Positions 9,077-28,094 of a DNA stretch of 64,000 nucleotides are shown here, piece after piece. A model generated the notes under the pieces. It did no database searches and was not told the DNA's origin. It saw only the letters and a program-made list of their open reading frames with translations. Position numbers and translations under genes: made by a program. The DNA lies in the NCBI RefSeq assembly GCF_007992435.1, contig NZ_BKAG01000041.1, positions 1 to 64,000 of the forward strand. Direction: 5' to 3'. Origin of the DNA: Prosthecobacter gellanilyticus (GTDB lineage: Bacteria > Verrucomicrobiota > Verrucomicrobiia > Verrucomicrobiales > Verrucomicrobiaceae). How positions within the stretch are numbered: position 1 is the stretch's first letter; the number at the start of each line of letters is the position of its first letter.

Positions 9077-10912
9077 ATGCCGCGCCTCATCCCCACGACC
9101 TCTCGTCTCTCGCCTTCGCACTTTTTGGCGCTGGCAGTGTGGGTTGTTGTTCAGAGCATCGCGTGGTCCGCAACACCGAAGATGCGGCTGGAGATCACTC
9201 CGATGTGGCAGGGCAGGGCAGTTGTGCCCGGACAAGGCATCGCATCTGATCAGAAGCTCAGCATCACCCGCCTGGATGCCATGCTTTCGAAGCTGGCGTT
9301 GAAGCGTGCGGACGGCTCATGGCTGGAGTCAGAGGACTGGCATCACTTCATCAGTTTGGAGCGCGGCAAACTGACGGTGGAAGCTGATGGCCTGTCGGCG
9401 GAAAAATTCATGGCTCTGCGTTTCGATGTCGGAGTGCCTGCATCTATCAATGCGGCATCGCCAGCTCAATGGCCTGCCGGGCATCCACTGCACCCCGATG
9501 TGTGCGGGCTGCATTGGGGATGGCAAGGTGGTTATGTCTTCATGGCGCTGGAGGGCCGCTGGCACTCTGCGCGTGGTGATGATGGCTTCTCCTACCATCT
9601 CGCGAATGATCCGAATGTGGCGCACGTGGAGCTTCCTGTGGAGTTCAGCGGTGGCGGACCTTTGACCCTGCACCTCGAACTCGATGCCGCGGTTATTCTT
9701 GAGGGCATCGACTTTGCCAAAGACGGCTCCAGCACGCACAGCCGGGAGGGGGATGCGCTTGCGGCGAAGCTAAAGGCCAATGTTCAGAGAGCCTTTCGCG
9801 TCCACGGTGTGAGTCATGATCTGTTCCAATCAGTGGCGAATGCTGTGGCGACACCTGTTGAGCTTCCGGCGGGAACTCATGCCTATCCCCTGGCCATCAC
9901 GGAACGCTTTCCCCAGGTCGCCTTGCCTGCTGACAATCCGCTCACGAAAGAAGGTGTGGCTCTGGGGGAGAAGCTTTTTCACGACAAGCGGCTCTCCATC
10001 AACAACACGAAATCCTGCGCGAGCTGCCACGCCGCCGACGAGTCCTTCGCGGATTCGCGTCGTGTCAGCATCGGTGCGCTGGGAGATGCCGGCACCCGCA
10101 ATTCCATGCCGTTGGTGAATCTCGCCTGGGGCCAGAGCTTCTTCTGGGATGGGCGCGCAAAGAGCCTCCGCGAGCAGGTGCTCATGCCGGTGCAGGACGT
10201 GCATGAGATGGCCGAATCGATGGAGAGTGTGGTGGGCAAGCTCACCGATTCGGAGTCCGAAATCAAAGCGGACTTCGCCGCTGCCTTCGGATCACCCGGG
10301 ATCACTTCGGATCGCATTGCCAAGGCCCTGGAGCAGTTTCTTCTGACGCTGGTTTCGCAAGAGTCGCGCTTTGACAAAGCCGTGCGCAAGGTGGCGGACC
10401 TTACGGAGGAAGAGAAGCGCGGCCTGCAGCTCTTTGTCACCGAGCATGATCCGAAGCGCGGCTTGTTCGGCGCGGACTGTTTTCACTGCCATGGCGGCAC
10501 GCTTTTCACGGATCATCAGTTTCACAACAACGGTCTCGACCTGAAGGCTGAGGACTTGGGCCGCATGATCGTGAGCGGAAAAGAGGAAGATCGCGGCAAG
10601 TTCAAGACCCCCACGCTGCGCAATATCGCGCTCACCGCGCCCTACATGCATGATGGCCGCTTCCGGACATTGGAAGAGGTCGTGGAGCACTACTCCAGCG
10701 AGGTGAAGCGTGCCCCGAACCTGGATCCAAACCTGGCCAAGCATCCCATCGAAGGACTGAACCTGAGCGCTGAGGACAAGCGCGCTCTTGTGGCCTTTCT
10801 CAAGACACTCACGGACGAATCCTTCGGCACGAAAGCCGCCACTGCCACCGGGCAGGGCAGCGTTTCGGTTGCCGTCACGGGCACCGCTCCACCCACACCG
10901 GGAACTAAATAA
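9077..10912 (+). CDS. Exported MbnP-MbnH fusion: copper-binding partner plus MauG-like di-haem peroxidase
   Basis: A 611-residue exported protein (signal peptide about 1-32). Residues about 35-250 match the MbnP ('metallo-mystery pair') family, with the signature HPDVCGLHWGWQGGYVFMAL (Trp147, Trp149, Tyr153). Residues about 265-590 are a MauG/CcpA/MbnH-type di-haem peroxidase: haem-binding CASCH (Cys314, Cys317, His318) and CFHCH (Cys468, Cys471, His472), plus TPTLRNIALTAPYMHDGRF near the end. In the methanotroph system the two are separate proteins, and MbnH converts a Trp of MbnP to kynurenine, producing a copper site. Here both lie on one chain. It is followed after 26 bp by the copper radical oxidase giant protein, suggesting a joint copper role. 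The upstream 140 bp (8937-9076) is AT-rich and probably holds the promoter, but I find no well-spaced sigma-70 pair. Confidence 0.88.
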   Translation: MPRLIPTTSRLSPSHFLALAVWVVVQSIAWSATPKMRLEITPMWQGRAVVPGQGIASDQKLSITRLDAMLSKLALKRADGSWLESEDWHHFISLERGKLTVEADGLSAEKFMALRFDVGVPASINAASPAQWPAGHPLHPDVCGLHWGWQGGYVFMALEGRWHSARGDDGFSYHLANDPNVAHVELPVEFSGGGPLTLHLELDAAVILEGIDFAKDGSSTHSREGDALAAKLKANVQRAFRVHGVSHDLFQSVANAVATPVELPAGTHAYPLAITERFPQVALPADNPLTKEGVALGEKLFHDKRLSINNTKSCASCHAADESFADSRRVSIGALGDAGTRNSMPLVNLAWGQSFFWDGRAKSLREQVLMPVQDVHEMAESMESVVGKLTDSESEIKADFAAAFGSPGITSDRIAKALEQFLLTLVSQESRFDKAVRKVADLTEEEKRGLQLFVTEHDPKRGLFGADCFHCHGGTLFTDHQFHNNGLDLKAEDLGRMIVSGKEEDRGKFKTPTLRNIALTAPYMHDGRFRTLEEVVEHYSSEVKRAPNLDPNLAKHPIEGLNLSAEDKRALVAFLKTLTDESFGTKAATATGQGSVSVAVTGTAPPTPGTK

Positions 10913-10938
10913 AATCCCCCCGCTCTTCTCCCGAGACG

Positions 10939-13900
10939 ATGAACCTCCCCCTCCGCCATCTTTGCCTAACCTTTTGTTTGCTGTTAGCGGCCTTGCCCGC
11001 CCATGCCGGTGAGGATGATCATGGCCTGAATGACGCCCTGAGCGCCGAGGCCCAGGCTCTGGCGCCCGCGTTTGTCGTCCTCACAGGTCCTGCACCCACT
11101 GCCACGCAGCGCAACGAGGTGGGAACCTGGGGCAGCGTGATCAACTGGACCCCGCACATTCCCGTGTCAGCGGCCACGCTGCCGGATGGACGCTTGCTCA
11201 CTTTTGCCTCGAACCAGCGCACCACCTTCCCGGTCGGGCCTGAGTTCACCTATGCGGCGGTTTGGAATCCAGCCACGGGTGTCTTCACCGAGATCAACAA
11301 CACGCGTCATGACATGTTCTGCGGCGGCACGGCCTTGCTTCCAGATGGACGCCTGGTGGTGAATGGCGGGCGTAACACCACCCGTCTGAGCAGCATCTTT
11401 GACTGGCGCACGAACCAGTGGACCGCCCTGCCTAACATGAATGATGGACGCTGGTACAACACCAGCGTGGCCCTCATTGATGGCAGCGTCTTCACTGTCA
11501 CTGGAGATGGCGGCATCACCACGGCAGAGCGTTGGAATGAAGGCGTGGGCTGGAGCCGCCTGACGGGGATCAACTGGAGCACCGTGGTTTCACTTCCGGG
11601 CTATGTGCCGAACTGGCATCCGTTGGTGCTGGTGTCTCCGGACAACCGTCTGTTCCATGGTGGACCCACGGATACGATGAACTGGATCACCGCTGATGGC
11701 ACAGGCTCGCTGACCTATGCGAATGTGAATGTGCCCGGGGCACACTACCCGAAGGAGGGCTGCTTCGCGATGTACAACGAAGGCCGCATCCTGGTGGCAG
11801 GCGGCTCGGCCAGCACGACACCGAATCCGAATGACGGCTCCACGGGAACCAGCACGAATCTGGCCTTCACCATCGACATCCGTGGCAGCACGCCAGTGGT
11901 GGCTGCGACATCGTCGATGAAGTATGTCCGCCAGTTCGTGAACAGCGTCATCCTTCCGAATGGTGAGGTCATGGCCATCGGCGGCAACACCAGCGGCCTG
12001 AAGTTCAATGACACAGGTTCCATCCTCTCTCCGGAAATTTGGAATCCGACCACCGGCCAGTGGCGTGAAGTGACCGACATGAGCGTGCCGCGCAACTATC
12101 ACTCGCTGGCCTTGCTGCTTCCAGACGGTCGCGTCTTTTCTGGCGGTGGTGGCCTGGGCGGAAACAGCGCGGACCATCGTGATGCGCAGCTCTACACACC
12201 CGGCATGCTCTATGACGCGGCGGGCAATCTGGCTGCACGCCCCACCATTGCCTCGGCACCATCACTCATCGGCAGCGGTCAGGTCTTCCAGGTGCAGGGC
12301 AGCGCGGGCATCACGCGCTTCACCTTCATCAAGATGTCTTCCGTGACGCATTCCATGAACACGGACCTGCGCTTCCTGGAACTGCCTTTCACCAGCCCCA
12401 GCAGCGGGAACTACAGTGTCACGGCACATAGTAATCTGAGCGTGATGACGCCCGGTTACTGGATGCTCTTCGCGCATAACTCGGCAGGTGTTTATTCCGT
12501 CGCCAGCATCATCCAGGTGTCTGCCACGAATTCTCCCACGCTGACGAATCCGGGATCGCAGATCACACGCTCCACGACCTCGCCCAGCCTGCAATTGGTG
12601 GCTGGTGGCCCTGGCGCCAAGACCTTCAGCGCCACCGGGCTTCCGACGGGCCTGACGATCAATGCTGGAACCGGTTTGATCGGCGGCACGATCACCGCCG
12701 CCCCTGCGGCCTTCAATGTCAGCGTGACGGTCCTGAACGACCTGGGCTTCAGCGCCACGCAAAACTTCACCTGGACGGTCACGCCCGCGGTCCTCGGCTC
12801 CGGCACCATCCTCCGTGAACTCTGGACGAACATCAGCACTTCCAACCTCAGCGCTCTGACGAGCAGCAACAAGTATCCGAACTCGCCCAACAGTTCCACC
12901 CAGCTCACCTCTTTCGAGACACCGACGAATTCAGCGGACAACTATGGTCAGCGGCTGCGTGGGTGGGTTCATCCGCCTGTCACAGGCCAGTATCGTTTCT
13001 GGATCGCTGGTGATGATGAGTGTCGTCTGCTGCTGAGCACCAATGACAGCGCTGCAAATGCCACCATGATCGCCCAGGTGCCGCAGGGCGGATGGACGGA
13101 GTCCCGCGACTGGATTGAGTATGATTCCCAGGCCTCGGTTTTGATCAATCTGGTGGCCGGGCAGCGCTACTACATCGAGGCGCTGCACAAAGAAGGCGGC
13201 GGTGGTGATAACCTCGCCGTCGGCTGGCTCATTCCTGGCGCCACTGCCACGACCGTGGTGGAGGGGCAGTACCTCTCGCCCATGGTCGCCAATCGTGCGC
13301 CCACACTCACCAATCCGGGGGCACGCACCAGTGTGGCAGGCCTGCTGACCTCCTTGCAGTTGGTGGCATCTGATCTGGATAATGATCCACTGGTCTTTTC
13401 GGCCAGCGGACTGCCCGCGGGCCTAACTTTGAATGTCACCACGGGTGTCATCAGCGGCATCCCGACGGCTTCCGGCAACTTCAACGCCACTGCCAGCGTG
13501 AGTGATGGCAAGGCAGCCCTGGTCAGCGTAAACTTCACCTGGACCATCAATGCCTCCCTGGTGCTGAGCACGCCGCTTTCCACGGCGGCGGCGGTCAACA
13601 CGGCGGTGAACTTCACAGCCACCAGCGCGGGCGGCCTGAATCCACGCTACCGCTGGAACTTTGGTGATGGCAGCGCCACGACCGCCTACAGCGCCCTGGC
13701 CACGGCTTCGCGCACTTACGCGGCAGCGGGGCGCTATCTCGTCACTCTGGAAGCCACGGATGACGCGGGTGCCATTCGCAGCACCACCTTCTATCAGGTG
13801 ATCTACCCGGCGCTCACCACCCGGAAGCCCAATGTCTCCTCCAGCATCATTCTGGAAGATCGCGCCACGGCCAATGATCGTGTCTGGGTGGTGAACCCTG

Positions 13901-16900
13901 ACAATGACAGCGTCACGGTGTTTGATGCGGTGACTCGTGCCAAGCTCGCTGAGACAACGGTGGGCACGGCTCCGCGCAGCATCGCCATCGCTCCCGATGG
14001 TCGCGCCTGGGTGACCAATGTGGAGGCTTCCACCATCAGCATTCTCAATGCTTCCACGTATGCGGTGGCGGGCACCGTGGCGCTGCCTCGTGGTTCACGT
14101 CCATTTGGCATCGCCTTTGACCCTGTGGGCACCGCTGCCTTCGTGGCGTTGGAAGGCTCCGGCACGCTTCTGAAACTGAATCCTGCAACCGGCGTGCAGA
14201 TCAGCAGCATCAGCGTGGGCCAGCATGCGCGTCATGTTTCCGTGAATGCAGATGGCAGCCGCGTGTATGTGAGTCGCTTCATCACCCCGTCTCTGCCGGG
14301 TGAAAGCACCGCCACGGTAGACATCACGAACAAGGGGGGTGAAGTGGTGGTGGTCACGGGTGGCACGCTCGCCATTGAGCGCACCGTGATCCTGGCGCAC
14401 AGCGAGCGTCAGGATTCACCCAGCTCCGCGCATGGCATTCCGAACTACCTCGGTGCCACGGCCATCTCACCAGACGGGCTTTTCGCCTGGGTGCCTTCGA
14501 AGCAGGATAACATCAAGCGTGGCACGCTGCGCAATGGTGTGAACCACAATCATGATCAGAGCCTGCGTGCCATCGCCAGCCGGATCAATCTCACCACGCA
14601 GGCGGAAGACGCGGCAAGCCGTGTGGACTTTGACAACTCTGGCATGCCCAGCGCAGCCGTCTTTGATCCTTGGGGTGGTTATGTCTTCGTCGCATTGGAG
14701 TCCAGCCGTGCAGTGGCGGTGGTGGACGCCTGGAATCGCGAGGTCGTGGGTCGCTTTGATGTCGGCCGTGCTCCTCAGGGCCTGGCCTTGTCGCCGGATG
14801 GCCTCACGCTCTTCGTGCATAACTTCATGGATCGCACGGTGAGCGTGCACAATGTCACGAGCTACATTCGTGGTGGAGTCGCCCTGCCCACGAGCATTGC
14901 GACCCTGAATTGCATCACCACTGAAAAGCTGACTGCCACTGTGCTGCGTGGAAAGCAGTTCTTCTATGATGCGCAGGACGTGCGTCTGGCTCTTCAGGAG
15001 TACATCTCCTGCGCCTCCTGTCACAATGATGGCGGTCATGACGGCCGCATCTGGGATTTCACCGGCTTCGGTGAAGGTCTGCGCAATACCATCACCCTCC
15101 GTGGTCATGGCACTCATGGCGCGCTGCACTGGACGGGGAACTTTGACGAAGTTCATGACTTTGAAGGCCAGATCCGGGCCTTTGCAGGCGGCACGGGCTT
15201 GATGACGGATTCCCAGTTCAACACCGGAACGCGCAATCTGCCGTTAGGTGATGCCAAGGCGGGTGTGAGCGCGGATCTCGATGCTCTTGCGGCGTATGTG
15301 ACCTCGCTGACCGCGGAGTCGCGCAGCCCTTTCCGTAATGCGGATGGAACACTTACCACGGCAGCCGTGGTAGGTGAACGAGTCTTCCGCCAGCAGAACT
15401 GCGCCAGCTGCCACAATGGCGCGCGCTTTACCAACAGCGCGCTGAATGTGTTCAGTGATGTCGGCACCATCAAGCAACCCACGAGTGGCAAGCGCCTCAA
15501 TGCTGCGCTGACCGGCTTTGACGTGCCGACCCTGCGTGGCCTCTGGGCCACTGGACCGTATTTGCATGATGGCAGCGCTTCCACATTGACCGCCGCTGTG
15601 CGTGCTCACACAGGCGTGACGATCAGCGATGCCGATGTTGCCAGTCTCAGCGCTTATCTCCAGCAGATTGATGATGCTCCTGCCGCAGCTCCTGTGCCGG
15701 TCACCGTGCTGCTGAGCACTGCAGCCGCGGCGCCGGTGAGTGCGGCCTTCACGGTCACCGCCACCTTCAGCCATGCTGTGACGGGTTTTGACCTCACGGA
15801 CATCACCGTGACAGGTGGCACCGCAGGCAGCCTCACCGGCAGCGGCACTACTTATAATTTCATCATCACGCCCACTGACAACGTGGCGATCTCCCTGGCG
15901 GCTGGAGTGGCGCAGGATGGCGCTGGGTTGACGAACGCGGCTTCAAACAGCCTCGCTCTCACCTATTCACAAACACCCACGGGAGGTTTGCAGCTCTCGG
16001 GAGTGGATGTGGGCGGACCGGCGTTACCGGGCTTGACCCAACTCGACACTGCCACAGGTATCTACACGCTGCGTGGCGCGGGAGATGAGATCTACTTCAC
16101 TGCGGATCAGTTCCACTTCTCCAATACGCTGCTCGTGGGTGATGGCGAAATCCGCGCGCGTGTGCGCAGTCTGGACAACACCAATCCTTGGGCCAAGGCG
16201 GGTGTGATGATCCGCGAGAGCACGGCCGCGGGTTCCCGGCATGTGATGATGAGCATCACGCCTCCGGCGGCGGCAAATGGTTTCGGCCTCATCTCGCGAA
16301 CCACGCAGAACGGCGCGGCGAACTATATGCAGCTCGATCCCTTGAATCCGGTGCCTAACAATTGGGTGCGTCTGGTGCGCGCGGGCAGTGTGATCTCTGC
16401 CTTTTACTCGGCGGATGGTACGAACTGGATCCAGGCGGACGCGATCACTCTGACGGGCCTGCCCTCCCAGGTGCTTGTCGGCCTCGCTGTCGGTTCCGTG
16501 AATGTGAGCCAGCTCGCCACGGCCACCTTTGACAATGTACAAGTCACTGGATCACTCACCGGCGTGGCTCCTGCGGTCACTCTCTCCACGGCATCCACCG
16601 TGGAGTCTGCGGCCTTCAATGTGCAGGTGCAGTTCACTCAAGGTGTCACGGGCCTGACGACCTCTGATTTCACGGTGACGAATGGCAGCGCGGCTAGTCT
16701 CACCGGTTCAGGATCGGCTTACACCGTCAACATTCAGCCTGCAGCGGCGGGCAATGTCACCATCTCGCTACCAGCAGGGGCCGCGGTCAATGCCACGAAC
16801 ATGGCCAGCACGGTCTCTAACACGGTCACGGTGAGTTATGCTCCCCCCATCGTCTTTGCCCTCACGGGGCAGGATGTGGGCGCCGTGGGCGTGGTCGGCA

Positions 16901-19620
16901 GCACCAGTTATGCGGCGGGCACTGGTGCCTACACGGTGCGTGGGGCCGGTGGCGAAATCTTCTTCAATGCAGATGGCTTTCACTTCGCCCTCACCCAGCT
17001 CACCGGCGACGGTGAGATCCGCGCGCGTGTGACGAGCCAGACAAACACCGGTGGCTGGGCCAAGTCCGGTGTCATGCTGCGTGAGAATCTCACCGCAGGT
17101 TCACGGCATGTGATGATGTTCACCACGCCTTCAAATGGCACGGGATCGGTGTCACGAGTCACTGCCAGCGGCACGTCCACCTTCAGCTATGGTCCTGCAT
17201 TGAATCCCGCGCCTAACAACTGGGTGCGTCTCGTTCGCGCGGGCAATCTGGTCACCGCCTATGCTTCCGCGAATGGCACCACGTGGACCACGGTGAGCAG
17301 CGTGACACTGACCGGCCTGTCTTCCACGCTCTATGCAGGTTTGGCGGTGACGTCCACGGCGAATGCGCAGTTGAGCACAGCCGTCTTTGATAACGTGACC
17401 ATCACCGGCAGCCTCGCCGTGGTGGCTCCGACGGTGACGTTGACCTCTTCTGCCTCCGTGGAAAGCGGACCTTTCCTGGTGCAGACAGCGTTTTCACAAA
17501 GTGTCAGCGGCTTGGCGGCGAGTGACTACGTGGTCACGAATGGCAGTGTGACGAGCCTCACGGGCTCGGGCTCCACCTATCAAGCCCAGATCACCCCACT
17601 GAGCGCAGGAACTGTCACCGTGAGCCTGCCTGCGAATGCTGCGCAGAATGGCGCGAATGCGGGCAACTCTGCCTCGAGCACGCTTAGCGTGACCTACTCA
17701 CCCTCGGCTGCTCTGAGCTTCCTCGCTCGTGACGTGGGTGCTGTGGGCGTGCCTGGCAGCACATCGCTGGACGCTGGCACGGGTACCTACACGGTGCGCG
17801 GCGCTGGTGATGAGATCTTCTTCACCGCAGATGCTTTTCACTATGCGTCCATGACACTGAATGGTGATGGCGAAATCCGCGCACGCGTGACCGGCCTCAC
17901 AAACACCGGTGACTGGGCCAAGGCGGGGGTGATGATCCGTGAGACGGCCACGCCGGGCTCACGGCACATGCTCTACTGCTCCATGCCTGCCGTCAGCGGG
18001 AATGGCACCGGTGTCATCTGGCGCACCGCCACCGGCGGCAGCTCACTGTTTGAATATGGGCCTTCGCTCAATCCCGCGCCTAACAATTGGTTGCGTCTCG
18101 TGCGCGCGGGCAATGTACTCACTGCCTACTCCTCCGCCAATGGCACGGCATGGACGGCGGTGAACTCGGTGACCTTCACCAGTCTCGCCACGAGTGTGCA
18201 GGTCGGTCTGGCGGTGACCGCCACGAATCCGGCCACGCTGGCGAACGGTACCTTTGACAATGTGCAGATCATCGGCAGCACCAGCGCCGGCGGCTCCTCT
18301 CCTGGAGGCGTGATTGATGACGAAGGCAGCATCGCCACTGCCCAGCCCGTGGACACGGATGCCGATGGTGATGATGTGAATGATCTGCTTGAGGGCATTC
18401 TCGGCAATGACTCGGCCTTTGATGGTGGCTGGTGGATTGCCTCCCAGGCTGATGGCCGTGTGGATGCGCATCTTGTGCACGTCGCCGGCATCACCGGTTA
18501 TTCCTTTGCCTTGGAGTCTACCACCGATCTGGTTCATTGGCAGTCTTTGACTCTCGCCTCCACGACGGCGGACATTGGCGGCGGGTGGACTCAGCGCTCC
18601 TGGACCGGCATCACGAATCTGCACGGGCAGAGCCTGGATCACGGCATGCTGCGCCTGCGTGTCACTCATAACTCCGGGTTGACCGCCTCCACCGCGCCGC
18701 AGGCCTGGCAGAAGTTCAGCCTGAATCCAGGTACGCAGACGGTGGGTGTCAGTCTGGTGAATGCGCCTGTGTATGCAGGTTTCGTGGCCGGTGTCACCGG
18801 CCCTGGCCAGCTGCAACTGACGGGCAGCGCGCTGCCGGTGAATGCAGGCGTTCCTTGCTACCTGGAAGTGCGTGAGGGGCCGCACGCTGGCCAGCGCTTT
18901 GATGTGGTCTCGGTGGATGGCAGCCAGGTCGTCCTGGATCTCACGGCACCTCATAACACACTCAGCGTGCTGCCGGACGGCATCGCAGGCGAGTCTGTCT
19001 TCATCCGTCCGCACGTGACCTTGGGGCAGGTCTTTCCGAAAGAGCTTTTCGTGGGAGGCACGCGCAGCACGCAGGCTGATCAGGTGCTCTTCTTCAATGG
19101 CACCGCCTGGGACACCTGCTGGCTGGTTCAGAGTGGCGGGCATCATCATTGGGCGCTGACCACAGATGCCACGCTGGCACCGCAGGAAGGGCGCATCATC
19201 CCGCCGGGAAGCGGTGTGATGGTGAAGCTCTTCAACCGCGGCACTGCCAGCACCATCACGGGTTATGTGCGGACCACGCCGTTTGTGCTTCCGCTGGCAG
19301 AGGGGCATCACTTCCTGGCTCCTCCGCGTCCGGTGGATGCCACGCCTAACCAATGGCATCTCAATGCAGAGGCCGGCCTCACTCCTTCCACCCGCTCCTC
19401 GACAGCCGATCAACTGCAGATCTGGGCCGCTGACAGCACCCCGGGGATTGCGAGCTACCTCGTGCACTGGCTGTATACCACCGGCTGGGTTCCACAGTGG
19501 GATGCCTCCAAAACTCCGGTCGGTGACACGCTGCTCCTGCCTGGTCATCGCGCCTTCTTCCTGAAGACTCAAGCTGCGGCCCAAGGCAAGGTCTGGAGTG
19601 TGCCAGGCGCCGGGGAGTGA
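10939..19620 (+). CDS. Giant exported copper radical oxidase / YVTN propeller / two-haem cytochrome / Ig-LamG multidomain protein
   Basis: A 2,893-residue protein with a signal peptide (1-23). Domains in order: a galactose-oxidase/kelch propeller with DUF1929-like end (about 40-530), with all ligand residues in place: Cys128 (HDMFCGG), Tyr173 (GRWYNTS), Tyr387-His388 (RNYHSLALLLPDGRV) and His471 (SVTHSMNTD); putative Ig (about 535-620); PA14 (about 620-780); a second putative Ig (about 785-870); PKD (about 873-957); a YVTN propeller (about 958-1320); a cytochrome region with CASCH at 1358-1362 and 1488-1492; three tandem Ig plus LamG-like modules (about 1585-2445); an Asp-rich calcium-type motif (DTDADGDDVND); and a TIGR02597-like C-terminus (about 2490-2893). 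Copper radical oxidases (AA5) oxidise alcohols or aldehydes and release H2O2. The haem region may take up electrons or peroxide (inference). Probably extracellular or surface-bound; the substrate is unknown. Confidence 0.9.
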   Translation: MNLPLRHLCLTFCLLLAALPAHAGEDDHGLNDALSAEAQALAPAFVVLTGPAPTATQRNEVGTWGSVINWTPHIPVSAATLPDGRLLTFASNQRTTFPVGPEFTYAAVWNPATGVFTEINNTRHDMFCGGTALLPDGRLVVNGGRNTTRLSSIFDWRTNQWTALPNMNDGRWYNTSVALIDGSVFTVTGDGGITTAERWNEGVGWSRLTGINWSTVVSLPGYVPNWHPLVLVSPDNRLFHGGPTDTMNWITADGTGSLTYANVNVPGAHYPKEGCFAMYNEGRILVAGGSASTTPNPNDGSTGTSTNLAFTIDIRGSTPVVAATSSMKYVRQFVNSVILPNGEVMAIGGNTSGLKFNDTGSILSPEIWNPTTGQWREVTDMSVPRNYHSLALLLPDGRVFSGGGGLGGNSADHRDAQLYTPGMLYDAAGNLAARPTIASAPSLIGSGQVFQVQGSAGITRFTFIKMSSVTHSMNTDLRFLELPFTSPSSGNYSVTAHSNLSVMTPGYWMLFAHNSAGVYSVASIIQVSATNSPTLTNPGSQITRSTTSPSLQLVAGGPGAKTFSATGLPTGLTINAGTGLIGGTITAAPAAFNVSVTVLNDLGFSATQNFTWTVTPAVLGSGTILRELWTNISTSNLSALTSSNKYPNSPNSSTQLTSFETPTNSADNYGQRLRGWVHPPVTGQYRFWIAGDDECRLLLSTNDSAANATMIAQVPQGGWTESRDWIEYDSQASVLINLVAGQRYYIEALHKEGGGGDNLAVGWLIPGATATTVVEGQYLSPMVANRAPTLTNPGARTSVAGLLTSLQLVASDLDNDPLVFSASGLPAGLTLNVTTGVISGIPTASGNFNATASVSDGKAALVSVNFTWTINASLVLSTPLSTAAAVNTAVNFTATSAGGLNPRYRWNFGDGSATTAYSALATASRTYAAAGRYLVTLEATDDAGAIRSTTFYQVIYPALTTRKPNVSSSIILEDRATANDRVWVVNPDNDSVTVFDAVTRAKLAETTVGTAPRSIAIAPDGRAWVTNVEASTISILNASTYAVAGTVALPRGSRPFGIAFDPVGTAAFVALEGSGTLLKLNPATGVQISSISVGQHARHVSVNADGSRVYVSRFITPSLPGESTATVDITNKGGEVVVVTGGTLAIERTVILAHSERQDSPSSAHGIPNYLGATAISPDGLFAWVPSKQDNIKRGTLRNGVNHNHDQSLRAIASRINLTTQAEDAASRVDFDNSGMPSAAVFDPWGGYVFVALESSRAVAVVDAWNREVVGRFDVGRAPQGLALSPDGLTLFVHNFMDRTVSVHNVTSYIRGGVALPTSIATLNCITTEKLTATVLRGKQFFYDAQDVRLALQEYISCASCHNDGGHDGRIWDFTGFGEGLRNTITLRGHGTHGALHWTGNFDEVHDFEGQIRAFAGGTGLMTDSQFNTGTRNLPLGDAKAGVSADLDALAAYVTSLTAESRSPFRNADGTLTTAAVVGERVFRQQNCASCHNGARFTNSALNVFSDVGTIKQPTSGKRLNAALTGFDVPTLRGLWATGPYLHDGSASTLTAAVRAHTGVTISDADVASLSAYLQQIDDAPAAAPVPVTVLLSTAAAAPVSAAFTVTATFSHAVTGFDLTDITVTGGTAGSLTGSGTTYNFIITPTDNVAISLAAGVAQDGAGLTNAASNSLALTYSQTPTGGLQLSGVDVGGPALPGLTQLDTATGIYTLRGAGDEIYFTADQFHFSNTLLVGDGEIRARVRSLDNTNPWAKAGVMIRESTAAGSRHVMMSITPPAAANGFGLISRTTQNGAANYMQLDPLNPVPNNWVRLVRAGSVISAFYSADGTNWIQADAITLTGLPSQVLVGLAVGSVNVSQLATATFDNVQVTGSLTGVAPAVTLSTASTVESAAFNVQVQFTQGVTGLTTSDFTVTNGSAASLTGSGSAYTVNIQPAAAGNVTISLPAGAAVNATNMASTVSNTVTVSYAPPIVFALTGQDVGAVGVVGSTSYAAGTGAYTVRGAGGEIFFNADGFHFALTQLTGDGEIRARVTSQTNTGGWAKSGVMLRENLTAGSRHVMMFTTPSNGTGSVSRVTASGTSTFSYGPALNPAPNNWVRLVRAGNLVTAYASANGTTWTTVSSVTLTGLSSTLYAGLAVTSTANAQLSTAVFDNVTITGSLAVVAPTVTLTSSASVESGPFLVQTAFSQSVSGLAASDYVVTNGSVTSLTGSGSTYQAQITPLSAGTVTVSLPANAAQNGANAGNSASSTLSVTYSPSAALSFLARDVGAVGVPGSTSLDAGTGTYTVRGAGDEIFFTADAFHYASMTLNGDGEIRARVTGLTNTGDWAKAGVMIRETATPGSRHMLYCSMPAVSGNGTGVIWRTATGGSSLFEYGPSLNPAPNNWLRLVRAGNVLTAYSSANGTAWTAVNSVTFTSLATSVQVGLAVTATNPATLANGTFDNVQIIGSTSAGGSSPGGVIDDEGSIATAQPVDTDADGDDVNDLLEGILGNDSAFDGGWWIASQADGRVDAHLVHVAGITGYSFALESTTDLVHWQSLTLASTTADIGGGWTQRSWTGITNLHGQSLDHGMLRLRVTHNSGLTASTAPQAWQKFSLNPGTQTVGVSLVNAPVYAGFVAGVTGPGQLQLTGSALPVNAGVPCYLEVREGPHAGQRFDVVSVDGSQVVLDLTAPHNTLSVLPDGIAGESVFIRPHVTLGQVFPKELFVGGTRSTQADQVLFFNGTAWDTCWLVQSGGHHHWALTTDATLAPQEGRIIPPGSGVMVKLFNRGTASTITGYVRTTPFVLPLAEGHHFLAPPRPVDATPNQWHLNAEAGLTPSTRSSTADQLQIWAADSTPGIASYLVHWLYTTGWVPQWDASKTPVGDTLLLPGHRAFFLKTQAAAQGKVWSVPGAGE
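15690..18276 (+). repeat. Three tandem ~860-bp coding repeats in the giant gene
   Basis: Three consecutive units encode one Ig-like domain (xVTLSTxxxVESxxF ... LTGSG) and one LamG/concanavalin-like domain (GAGDEIxFTAD ... GDGEIRARV ... WAKAGVMIRE ... NNWVRLVRAG). The shared codons for PNNW-RLVRAG occur at 16354, 17212 and 18079, giving periods of 858 and 867 bp. The Ig unit of copy one starts near 15697, copy two near 16560 and copy three near 17415. The strong similarity at DNA level indicates duplication within the gene and makes copy-number variation between strains plausible. Confidence 0.85.
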
Positions 19621-24930: not shown

Positions 24931-27138
24931 TCAGGCGACTGCGGGCAGTTGATCGATCAGTTTGTCCAGGGTGATGGGATAGTCACGCACGCGCACACCG
25001 GTCGCGTTGTAGATGGCATTCGCCACCGCGGCGCCCACGCCACAGATGCCGAGTTCGCCCACTCCCTTGGCTTTCAGCGGAGAGGAGATCGGATCTGTTT
25101 CGTCCAGGAATATGACCTCTTGATGAGGGATGTCAGCATGCACGGGCACCTCATAGCTGGCGAGATCGTGATTCACGAAGAAGCCTCTCTTCTTGTCCAC
25201 CTTCAGTTCCTCCATCAGCGCCGCTCCCACGCCCATGGTCATGGCTCCGATGACCTGGCTGCGGGCTGTCTTGGGATTCAGGATACGTCCCGCCGCGCAC
25301 ACCGCGAGCATGCGCCGCACGCGTGTTTCACCTGTGAAGCTGTCCACTGCCACCTCCACATAGTGAGCACCGAAGGTGGACTGCTGAAACTTCTTGTCCA
25401 GATCGCCATACTCCATCGTGTCTTCCACCTCGAGCCCCTTGTCTCCGGCGGCCTCGGCGAGTGACACACTACGACCTCCTGCGCTTACCTTGCCATCTGC
25501 AAAAATCGCCTCAGTCGCGCTGAGGCCTGTCTTTAGAGTGATGGCAGCCCGCAGCTTCATGCATGCTGCGTAGACGCCTGATGAGGAGCTGTTGCCTCCC
25601 CACTGTCCACCGGAACCGCAGGACACTGGAAACGTGGAATCTCCCAGCCTAACCGTGACTTTGTCCAAAGACACACCGAGTGTCTCGGCAGCAGTCTGAG
25701 CGATGACGGTATAGCTGCCTGTGCCGATGTCTGTCATGTCGGTCTCAACCGTGATATGGCCGCTTTTGTCGAGTTTCACTCGCGCGGCGGACTTCATCAC
25801 AAGGTTATTGCGAAGTGCCGCTGCCACGCCCATGCCCATGAGCCAGCGGCCTTCGCGTGTTTGGCCGGGCTTGGCGTTACGCTTGTCCCAGCCGAATTTC
25901 TCGGCGCCGGTGCGCAGGCATTCGATCAAGCGGCGCTGCGAAAAGGGGCGCTCGGGCTTCTCAGGGTCGACCTGTGTGTCATTGAGAATGCGGAACTCGA
26001 CAGGATCCATGCCCAGCTTTTCCGCCATCTCATCCACAGCAATCTCCAGCGCCATCATGCCCGGCGCCTCGCCAGGCGCACGCATGGCATTTCCCTCCGG
26101 TAGATCCAGCTCTGCAAGCCGCATGGCTGTCAGGCGATTGGCTCCCGCATACAGCAGCCGTGTCTGGCTGACTGCCGTTTCGGGTTCACCGCCCGGCAGA
26201 TCACCAGACCAGCTTTCGTGGGCGATGGCGCTGAGCTGGCCATCCTTCGTCGCACCCAGGCGGATGCGCTGGATCGTTGCGGGACGATGGGTCGTGTTGT
26301 TGATCATCAGTGCCCGTTGCAGAGCGATTTTCACAGGCCTCTTCACGGCCCGGGCACCGAGCGCTGCCAGCAAAGCATCCGCTCGCAGGAAAAGCTTTCC
26401 ACCGAAGCCGCCGCCGATAAAGGGGGAGATGAGGCGGACGTTTTCCTTTTGAATGCCGAGCGTTTTCGCCATGTCACCCACGCCCCAGCCCACCATTTGG
26501 TTGGAGGTCCAGATGGTGAGCTTGTCACCTTCCCAGGCGGCGATGGTCGCATGCGGCTCTATCATGGCATGGGACTGGTCCGGGGTGGTGTAGGTTGCAT
26601 CCAGCTGCACTGGCGCAGCGGCAAAAGCCTTGTCGAAATCACCCACAGCCGTCTCAGGTGGTCCGCCAAAACCTTCCTTGGGCTTCTTGCCGGAGTCCTT
26701 GACACTGGCGAGATCGAAGGAGCCTTTGGCTGCTTCATACTTTACCCGAACCAATTGTGCGGCTGAGCGAGCTTGTTCAAAAGTTTCAGCCACCACTACG
26801 GCGATGGCTTGATGGTAGTGCTGGATCTCCGGACCTCCCAGCAGCTTCGCGGTATTGTGATCTCCCTTGTCCAGCTTACCGGCATTCTCGGCGGTGATGA
26901 TGGCCAGCACGCCAGGAGCCGCTTTCGCCTGCCCAAGGTCCATGGATGAGATGCGTCCTTTGCCAATGGCCGCACCGACCACGTAGCCATAGGCTGGATT
27001 GGGGGCTGCCTCATGCTGCTCATACGCATAAGGAGCCTTGCCCGTGGTTTTCAGGGGGCCGTCGACTCGATCGAGTGGTTGGCCAACGACCTTGAGCTGG
27101 TCGATCGGATTCGTGGTGGCAGGCGTTTCGAATTTCAT
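24931..27138 (-). CDS. paoC: Aldehyde oxidoreductase molybdenum-binding subunit (PaoC/YagR-like)
   Basis: A 735-residue large subunit of a xanthine-oxidase-family enzyme, carrying the molybdenum cofactor and active site. It starts with VGQPLDRVDGPLKTTGKAPYA, has IGGGFGGKLF (cofactor loop), MRAPGEAPGMMALE and GSGGQWGGNSSSSG, and the catalytic glutamate Glu695 in KGVGELGICGVGAA. Together with the two genes upstream (27141-28747) it forms a three-subunit enzyme like E. coli PaoABC, which oxidises aldehydes in the periplasm. Because the cofactor-bearing subunit lacks an export signal, it should be carried out in the folded complex by the Tat signal of the small subunit. The gap to the FAD subunit is 2 bp. 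Confidence 0.92.
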   Translation of the reverse strand: MKFETPATTNPIDQLKVVGQPLDRVDGPLKTTGKAPYAYEQHEAAPNPAYGYVVGAAIGKGRISSMDLGQAKAAPGVLAIITAENAGKLDKGDHNTAKLLGGPEIQHYHQAIAVVVAETFEQARSAAQLVRVKYEAAKGSFDLASVKDSGKKPKEGFGGPPETAVGDFDKAFAAAPVQLDATYTTPDQSHAMIEPHATIAAWEGDKLTIWTSNQMVGWGVGDMAKTLGIQKENVRLISPFIGGGFGGKLFLRADALLAALGARAVKRPVKIALQRALMINNTTHRPATIQRIRLGATKDGQLSAIAHESWSGDLPGGEPETAVSQTRLLYAGANRLTAMRLAELDLPEGNAMRAPGEAPGMMALEIAVDEMAEKLGMDPVEFRILNDTQVDPEKPERPFSQRRLIECLRTGAEKFGWDKRNAKPGQTREGRWLMGMGVAAALRNNLVMKSAARVKLDKSGHITVETDMTDIGTGSYTVIAQTAAETLGVSLDKVTVRLGDSTFPVSCGSGGQWGGNSSSSGVYAACMKLRAAITLKTGLSATEAIFADGKVSAGGRSVSLAEAAGDKGLEVEDTMEYGDLDKKFQQSTFGAHYVEVAVDSFTGETRVRRMLAVCAAGRILNPKTARSQVIGAMTMGVGAALMEELKVDKKRGFFVNHDLASYEVPVHADIPHQEVIFLDETDPISSPLKAKGVGELGICGVGAAVANAIYNATGVRVRDYPITLDKLIDQLPAVA

Positions 27139-27140
27139 GG

Positions 27141-28094
27141 TCAGGCTCCTTTCGCTTCCGCCAGCACGGCACCCAGCACGCGTTCGACGAGTTTGACTTT
27201 GAAGGCATTGTCCTTGGTAGGCTTAGCATCCGCCAGCAGGCGCTCCGTCACTGCCTTGGCTCCGCGCGGCAGTTCGGCCTCGGCTGCCTCCACACGCCAG
27301 GGCTTGTGCGCCACGCCTCCCACAGCCACACGACCGGAGCCATCACGCTGAATGACGGCCGCGATCGAGACGAGGGCGAAGGCATAGGAAGCCCGGTCGC
27401 GAACTTTGTGGTAGATGTGCGTGCCACCGAGAGGTTTAGGCAGCGTGACGGCCGTGATCAGCTCACCTGGCTGCAGTACGGTCTCGAGGTGAGGCGTGTC
27501 GCCAGGCAGCCGGTGGAAGTCGGCGATGGGGATCGTTCGTGTTGTGCCATCAGGGAGGATGGTTTCGACGCTGGCATCCAGCACGCGCAGCGCCACCGCC
27601 ATGTCACTCGGGTGTGTGGCGATGCATGCCTCGCTCACTCCAATGATGGCCAGCTGGCGGCTTGCACCGTCCACCGCACTGCAACCACTGCCTGGCAGCC
27701 GTTTATTGCACGGCTGGTTGGTATCGTAGAAATAGGGGCAGCGAGTGCGCTGCAGCAGATTACCTGCGGTGGTGGCCATGTTGCGCAACTGGCCGGAGGC
27801 ACCCGCCACCAGCGCGCGAGACAGCACTCCGTAGTCTCGACGCACCCGTTCGTCAGCCGCGAGATCGGTGTTCCGCACCAGAGCGCCGATACGCAAGCCG
27901 CCCTCTGGAGTGGGCTCGATCTTGTCGAGCTGCAAACCGTTCACGTCGATCAAATGCATCGGCTCTTCGATCTCGAGCTTCATCAGGTCCAGCAGGTTCG
28001 TTCCACCGGCGACAAACTTGGCTCCTGGATGACGCATCGCGGCTCCAGCTGCTGCTGCGGGTGACTCTGCGCGTTCGTAGGTGAAAGGTTTCAT
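27141..28094 (-). CDS. paoB: Aldehyde oxidoreductase FAD-binding subunit (PaoB/YagS-like)
   Basis: A 317-residue FAD subunit. The N-terminus has [13 protein letters not shown], the FAD pyrophosphate loop of xanthine-dehydrogenase medium subunits, and later [20 protein letters not shown]. The segment [20 protein letters not shown] contains the extra cysteines that in the YagS/PaoB branch bind a [4Fe-4S] cluster, which separates it from ordinary xanthine dehydrogenase FAD subunits. It passes electrons between the small [2Fe-2S] subunit and the acceptor. Its start overlaps the small-subunit stop by 4 bp (ATGA), indicating translational coupling. Confidence 0.92.

Follow-up and report, generated by a model that had tools for sequence, protein, structure and literature searches.

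The window analyzed here, a 64,000-nucleotide stretch of Prosthecobacter gellanilyticus DNA, carries an MbnP-MbnH fusion gene followed by a single uninterrupted open reading frame (ORF) of 2,893 codons with an ATG start. A sequence-only reading of the window had proposed that this ORF encodes one protein in which a copper radical oxidase (CRO) is joined to PA14, PKD, and YVTN domains and to two c-type haem motifs at residues 1358 and 1488. The frame was indeed intact, and profile matches recovered each domain and both CASCH motifs. Beyond that reading, the chain also contains Ig-like (Big_12 and He_PIG), DUF1349, and C-terminal sorting-like domains, and the MbnP-MbnH gene lies immediately upstream. 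The features are as follows.

9077..10912, + strand: MbnP-MbnH fusion, 611 aa, 26 nt upstream of the CRO gene (PF20243 E=1.8e-25, PF03150 E=5.7e-53, TIGR04039 E=2e-74, TIGR04052 E=1.8e-9)
9515..9523, + strand: Trp147-Gly-Trp149, WxW motif of MbnP (W147 in 28/28, W149 in 26/28)
9950..10810, + strand: MbnH/MauG-type dihaem domain with Trp357, Gln367, Pro371, Glu377, and Tyr539, the haem-2 ligand (6e1c E=1.1e-63)
10939..19620, + strand: CRO–PA14–PKD–YVTN–dihaem–Big_12/DUF1349–C-terminal domain protein, 2,893 aa, predicted exported
10939..11007, + strand: probable Sec signal peptide, residues 1-23 (..LLLAALPAHA/GEDD, cleavage at the slash), read by eye
11098..12522, + strand: CRO domain (kelch propeller and GO-like E-set), residues 54-528 (phmmer 9g43 E=3.2e-92; PF09118 E=2.6e-19)
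11320..11322, + strand: Cys128 of the Cys-Tyr cofactor (kept in 54/55 homologues)
11452..11457, + strand: Trp172-Tyr173, second-shell Trp directly before the cross-linked Tyr (W 54/55, Y 55/55)
12097..12102, + strand: Tyr387-His388, axial Tyr and Cu ligand (55/55)
12349..12351, + strand: His471, Cu ligand (55/55)
12889..13260, + strand: PA14, residues 651-774, within a variable linker (PF07691 E=1.6e-5, above cut-off)
13564..13800, + strand: PKD, residues 876-954 (PF00801/PF18911)
13873..14817, + strand: YVTN beta-propeller, residues 979-1293, hydrazine-synthase-beta-like (TIGR02276 E=2.6e-17, NF052340 E=4.3e-12)
14941..15705, + strand: dihaem domain, residues 1335-1589, nearest hydrazine synthase gamma (5c2v_C E=7.3e-22, profile A6; PF03150 above cut-off)
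15010..15024, + strand: haem-1 motif CASCH, residues 1358-1362 (35/35)
15130..15132, + strand: Trp1398, inter-haem Trp equivalent (invariant in A6 and 35/35)
15400..15414, + strand: haem-2 motif CASCH, residues 1488-1492 (35/35)
15607..15609, + strand: His1557, predicted sixth ligand of haem 2 (33/35; alignments)
15703..18138, + strand: three Big_12 and three DUF1349 domains (PF19078 E=9e-24, PF07081 E=1e-21)
18079..19617, + strand: C-terminal domain with a weak TIGR02597 match (profile match, genome homologues)

Export of both the CRO fusion and the MbnP-MbnH protein is suggested because their N-termini are signal-like and haem attachment needs the periplasm. Genes of the ResB and ResC type were found in the genome, so haem attachment is possible. 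The C-terminal ~500 aa (18079-19617), which are perhaps a sorting or anchoring domain, are common to giant proteins of the same genome encoded by ORFs of 2,317, 6,412, and 12,122 codons. Genes for the MoCo-binding and FAD subunits of a molybdenum hydroxylase (xanthine-dehydrogenase type) lie at window positions 24931-28094.

The copper radical oxidase domain

In addition to the bacterial enzyme 9g43, fungal galactose oxidases were matched by the CRO domain at about 1e-69 (phmmer). The five residues assigned by the sequence-only reading to the copper radical center, Cys128, Tyr173, Tyr387, His388, and His471, fell where it had placed them and aligned to 9g43 within the galactose oxidase motifs MFC, GR-xY, YHS, and THxxNTD. 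Among 55 aligned CRO homologues, the Tyr and His residues were invariant, and Cys128 was lost once, in L106. This Thiotrichaceae homologue (L106:1393-6393) has an Ala where the cofactor Cys would be and keeps the remaining active-site residues; it may be a CRO without the thioether. The structure prediction that had been proposed as a check (AlphaFold, residues 40-531) gave a mean pLDDT of 94.1 and a pTM of 0.92, and the model superposed on 9g43 with a TM of 0.90 and an rmsd of 1.8 A (Foldseek). The predicted galactose oxidase fold, a seven-bladed kelch propeller followed by a GO-like E-set, was thus recovered by profiles, AlphaFold, and Foldseek alike. The domain is complete in its active-site residues and is predicted to bind copper.

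The CRO resembles the Pseudarthrobacter siccitolerans galactose oxidase (9g43, 9g8h) and the fungal AA5_2 enzymes in fold, at 38% identity, and in all five residues. However, some differences were apparent. First, the stacking aromatic residue found at the Trp290 position in AA5_2 is absent, the position being deleted (VTGD-GG). Second, W172 is found instead beside Tyr173, directly before the cross-linked Tyr. Third, a YVTN-dihaem unit is fused to the domain. The Trp-Tyr pair has a counterpart in the Fusarium graminearum aldehyde oxidase (AA5_1, 9n3u), whose W509-Y510 residues are consecutive and whose preferred substrates are aldehydes, methylglyoxal among them (PMC13094651). Because W172-Y173 matches the W509-Y510 pair of fungal aldehyde oxidases, the substrate is likely to be an aldehyde (methylglyoxal, glyoxal, or an aldehyde end group) rather than galactose, a prediction drawn from one residue. 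The Fusarium enzyme is nevertheless distant (18% identity, Foldseek rank 27) and contains no haem.

The YVTN-dihaem unit

The haem part of the long protein matched the CCP_MauG and RoxA-like cytochrome profiles above Pfam cut-offs, and the best PDB match of the dihaem domain was hydrazine synthase (HZS) gamma, 5c2v_C. Chance occurrence of the CxxCH motifs was ruled out by the haem profile (E=7e-22). In a homologue model, the propeller matched HZS beta (5c2v_B) with a TMt of 0.78, with a generic archaeal YVTN protein ranking ahead. Across homologues, the gap between the YVTN and dihaem domains was 1 to 22 aa, whereas the linker from CRO to PKD ranged from 18 to 977 aa and was merely 18 to 27 aa long in the compact forms. 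This near-constant gap, set against a variable CRO linker, means that YVTN-dihaem is a fixed unit to which the CRO is flexibly tethered. AlphaFold modeling of the compact homologue L116 (CRO-YVTN-haem) gave a pTM of 0.59 with weak haem-domain confidence, which is too low for CRO-haem contacts.

The fused haem domain shares its two CxxCH motifs and the CCP_MauG profile with dihaem peroxidases and MauG. However, the sixth-ligand place of haem 2 is occupied by His1557, not by the Met of peroxidases or the Tyr of MauG/MbnH, which makes bis-His ligation of this haem probable. The distal Pro/Glu of bCCP/MauG is also absent from the haem-1 pocket, the aligned stretch being FEGQIRAFAGG, where the equivalence is weak. 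An ordinary cytochrome c peroxidase was ruled out by the absent Pro/Glu together with the His ligand. The arrangement is that of HZS beta-gamma (5c2v) and its non-anammox homologues (PMC12758564), in which a YVTN propeller is directly followed by a dihaem domain, with His at haem 2 and, as predicted here, bis-His ligation. Haem gammaII of HZS gamma has bis-His ligation and serves in electron transfer (PMC12607021; PMC12758564). Trp1398 lies at the gamma-144 place, where the non-anammox homologues also have Trp (PMC12758564). In contrast to HZS, neither gamma-Cys165 nor gamma-His144 is kept, and the N terminus carries a CRO where some homologues have cytochrome c554 domains. A true hydrazine synthase was ruled out by the loss of these two residues and by an NCBIfam HZS score far under the cut-off (82.6 versus 1250 bits). 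The "haem region" of the sequence-only reading therefore holds as far as the two c-type motifs go, but it is no ordinary one, being a fixed YVTN unit nearest to HZS beta-gamma and without the distal Pro/Glu.

Since no solved structure is closer to the haem unit than HZS gamma, HZS-gamma-like catalysis might be the main activity, with NO or another small ligand reduced at haem 1 and the CRO supplying or removing substrate; the missing Cys and His and the low HZS score make this very improbable. Hardly credible at all is a haem module that has decayed or become structural, leaving the CRO alone active. The peroxidase pocket residues are absent, as such decay would predict, but invariance in 35/35 sequences from three phyla extends to both CxxCH motifs, to the Trp, and to a new cluster of acidic residues (E, D, and E within NFDE..DFE).

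Distribution of the fusion and its neighboring gene

A CRO match was found in 49 of 143 related genomes, and the strong ones lay nearly all inside ORFs of 2,100 to 3,500 codons. At the 20 loci read in detail, every long CRO homologue (18/18) had YVTN and two CxxCH motifs in the same ORF. Scanning named GTDB genomes yielded 80 CRO loci, and the fusion was counted in the 62 CRO ORFs that were complete at the 3′ end. YVTN and dihaem domains were present in the same ORF in 54 of the 62; the eight exceptions were three split genes, three CRO-only genes, and two Acidobacteriota genes with a different haem domain. A sequencing or assembly artefact was ruled out by the presence of the same fusion at about 58 loci of independent genomes, and a chance combination of domains by E-values to 1e-92 and the same domain order in 54/62 ORFs. 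At one locus with MbnP-MbnH upstream (L074:8953-15702), a natural or assembly break precisely at the PA14/PKD boundary divides the fusion into two adjoining ORFs.

The fusion hosts were Verrucomicrobiota (including the isolates Roseibacillus persicicus and Haloferula luteola), Chloroflexota, and Gammaproteobacteria (Leucothrix pacifica, Granulosicoccaceae, and Chromatiales). In the CRO tree, the hosts from the three phyla formed one supported branch (100/99), with a CRO-only Colwellia nested inside and the window CRO grouping with Verrucomicrobiaceae. The same architecture across three phyla within one supported branch means that the fusion is old and has been kept. What had first been called an unusual combination is thus real, in that a CRO and two c-type haem motifs share one chain, but it is no one-off. 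The divergence of the CRO and haem domains was correlated (r=0.81), as expected of any linked domains.

Seven Acidobacteriota loci (L128, L123, L127, and L133-L136) formed a separate CRO clade (100/100). L128:2556-8198 shows the arrangement in full: its CRO shares a chain with a MauG/MbnH-type domain that has FWDG, Q..P..E, and the Tyr ligand. Judging by these sequences, Acidobacteriota joined a CRO to a MauG-type enzyme independently of the YVTN fusion. Because both the clade and the MauG-type domain are separate, fusion of a CRO with a dihaem enzyme exists in at least two forms. Another kind of chain was seen in paralogues such as G000:C13:21242-23275 and L058:5584-11469 (+), in which an N-terminal LVIVD-like propeller replaces the CRO and the YVTN-dihaem part is about 45% identical; about 30 such copies were found in relatives. 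Since it is also joined to this propeller, YVTN-dihaem is a reusable module.

These observations bear on whether the CRO and the haem module work together. They might be independent activities that happen to share a surface scaffold, an adhesin-like giant exoenzyme that co-displays the haem module with no redox coupling. The many Ig-like, PA14, LamG, and DUF1349 modules, the C-terminal domain common to other giant proteins, and the joining of YVTN-dihaem to an LVIVD-like propeller in place of the CRO would all fit. However, three phyla keep the CRO-dihaem pair, in some cases as compact forms in which CRO and PKD are just 18 to 27 aa apart, and a separate CRO-MauG fusion exists in Acidobacteriota, so this reading is quite unlikely.

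In MbnP, the Trp of a WxW motif is turned into kynurenine by MbnH, and copper binds afterwards. The MbnP/MbnH pair (7l6g, 6e1c) is reportedly that of Kenney et al. (cited in PMC12607021). The upstream gene of the window resembles this pair in the WxW Trp, the MauG-type Gln/Pro/Glu, and the Tyr ligand. It differs in having both proteins in one chain, in lying outside a methanobactin operon, and in scoring below the NCBIfam cut-offs, with 37.3 versus 140 bits for the MbnP part (TIGR04052) and 250.6 versus 362.85 bits for the MbnH part (TIGR04039). In the MbnH part, the MauG-type Trp, Gln, Pro, Glu, and Tyr ligand were kept in all sequences with letters at those positions. The WxW motif of the MbnP part aligned weakly with that of 7l6g (E=0.007). 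At the candidate copper site of MbnP (His, Met), an invariant His was present.

MbnP-MbnH was immediately upstream of the CRO gene in 33 of the 70 loci with enough context, all of them in Verrucomicrobiota, and the junction was an exact 4-bp overlap in 20 of the 35 measured. The cultivable relatives Haloferula luteola and Roseibacillus persicicus both have the two-gene pair. Roughly half of the loci, and every non-Verrucomicrobiota locus found, lacked MbnP-MbnH next to the CRO gene. Among the flanking genes examined, it was the sole conserved neighbor; the flanking OEP and kinase genes, conserved in merely 0 to 2 loci, were rejected as parts of the system. In raw counts taken regardless of kinship, a strong CRO match was accompanied by an MbnP-MbnH or MbnH-type match in 42 of 43 relatives, compared to 40 of the 100 relatives that had no strong CRO match. 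MbnP-MbnH fusions with no CRO beside them were also found in many Verrucomicrobiota (L139-L154), near sulfatase, AcrB-type, GSDH, DUF1501, and histidine-kinase genes. Because it also occurs without an adjacent CRO, the role of MbnP-MbnH may be wider than the CRO.

A proposed copper-and-haem oxidation system

The pair at 9077-19620 may constitute a two-gene exported copper-and-haem oxidation system made up of a CRO, its redox-partner dihaem unit, and a copper-handling MbnP-MbnH, a reading for which we consider the case evenly balanced. It builds on domains, residues, conservation, layout, and co-occurrence taken from sequence, and from these we infer copper and haem binding, substrate, electron flow, copper transfer, and kynurenine formation. 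The N-terminal CRO would oxidize a small aldehyde or an aldehyde end group and produce H2O2, with the tethered dihaem unit as its redox partner. The dihaem unit may oxidize the inactive, semi-reduced Cu(II) form of the CRO by one electron, turning on the Cys-Tyr radical, and/or it may drain H2O2 or electrons and hand them on via the bis-His haem. MbnP-MbnH would use peroxide to convert the Trp of its own WxW to kynurenine, would then bind Cu(I), and would supply or buffer copper for the CRO.

A precedent for activation is found in fungi, where a peroxidase encoded beside a CRO activates that CRO by one-electron oxidation (PMC9770985). This tandem peroxidase-alcohol oxidase pair is similar in that a CRO is genetically paired with a one-electron-oxidizing haem protein, but the fungal haem protein belongs to another family and the two are separate chains. 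Because the haem-1 pocket lacks the distal Pro/Glu, peroxidase-type activation by the fused module is unsupported. The canonical peroxide-using site would sit in MbnH of the adjoining gene, not in the fused haem module. The two genes might even form a self-sustaining circuit, in which the dihaem unit activates the CRO radical or draws off electrons from the CRO, H2O2 from the CRO feeds MbnH, MbnH generates the kynurenine copper site of MbnP, and MbnP provides the copper of the CRO; this fuller version is doubtful.

In cellobiose dehydrogenase, electrons leave through its cytochrome domain. The long protein might likewise be a copper radical dehydrogenase, in which substrate electrons exit via the dihaem unit to an external acceptor, not O2, and H2O2 is a side product. 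The HZS-gamma-type bis-His haem is an electron-transfer haem (PMC12607021, PMC12758564), the His ligand is predicted here, and the peroxidatic Pro/Glu is not present in the fused module. On the other hand, the CRO residues for O2 use are fully kept, and the CRO-haem linkers of 18 to 977 aa contain differing domains and hence enforce no short electron path. Since such variable tethers speak against a fixed electron wire, the dehydrogenase is unlikely and ranks second, after the two-gene oxidation system.

Every domain family involved has been described before. The literature searched, which was the open literature, contained no account of the full chain, of how it is conserved, or of its association with MbnP-MbnH, and no report of a cytochrome or MauG joined to a CRO. 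The fusion looks like a real but uncharacterized redox machine. If the circuit is true, it would be the first enzyme, per the literature searched, in which a CRO and its haem redox partner share a single chain. As to how CROs are naturally activated and obtain their copper, what is known so far is a fungal peroxidase on a chain of its own; in these bacteria, the haem unit is attached covalently to the CRO. The operon-like pair also puts a kynurenine-type copper protein beside the CRO, and haem-assisted CRO activation becomes testable. It provides a relative of HZS beta-gamma with an assayable enzyme attached and, for the MbnP/MbnH "metallo-mystery pair," a possible client outside methanobactin operons.
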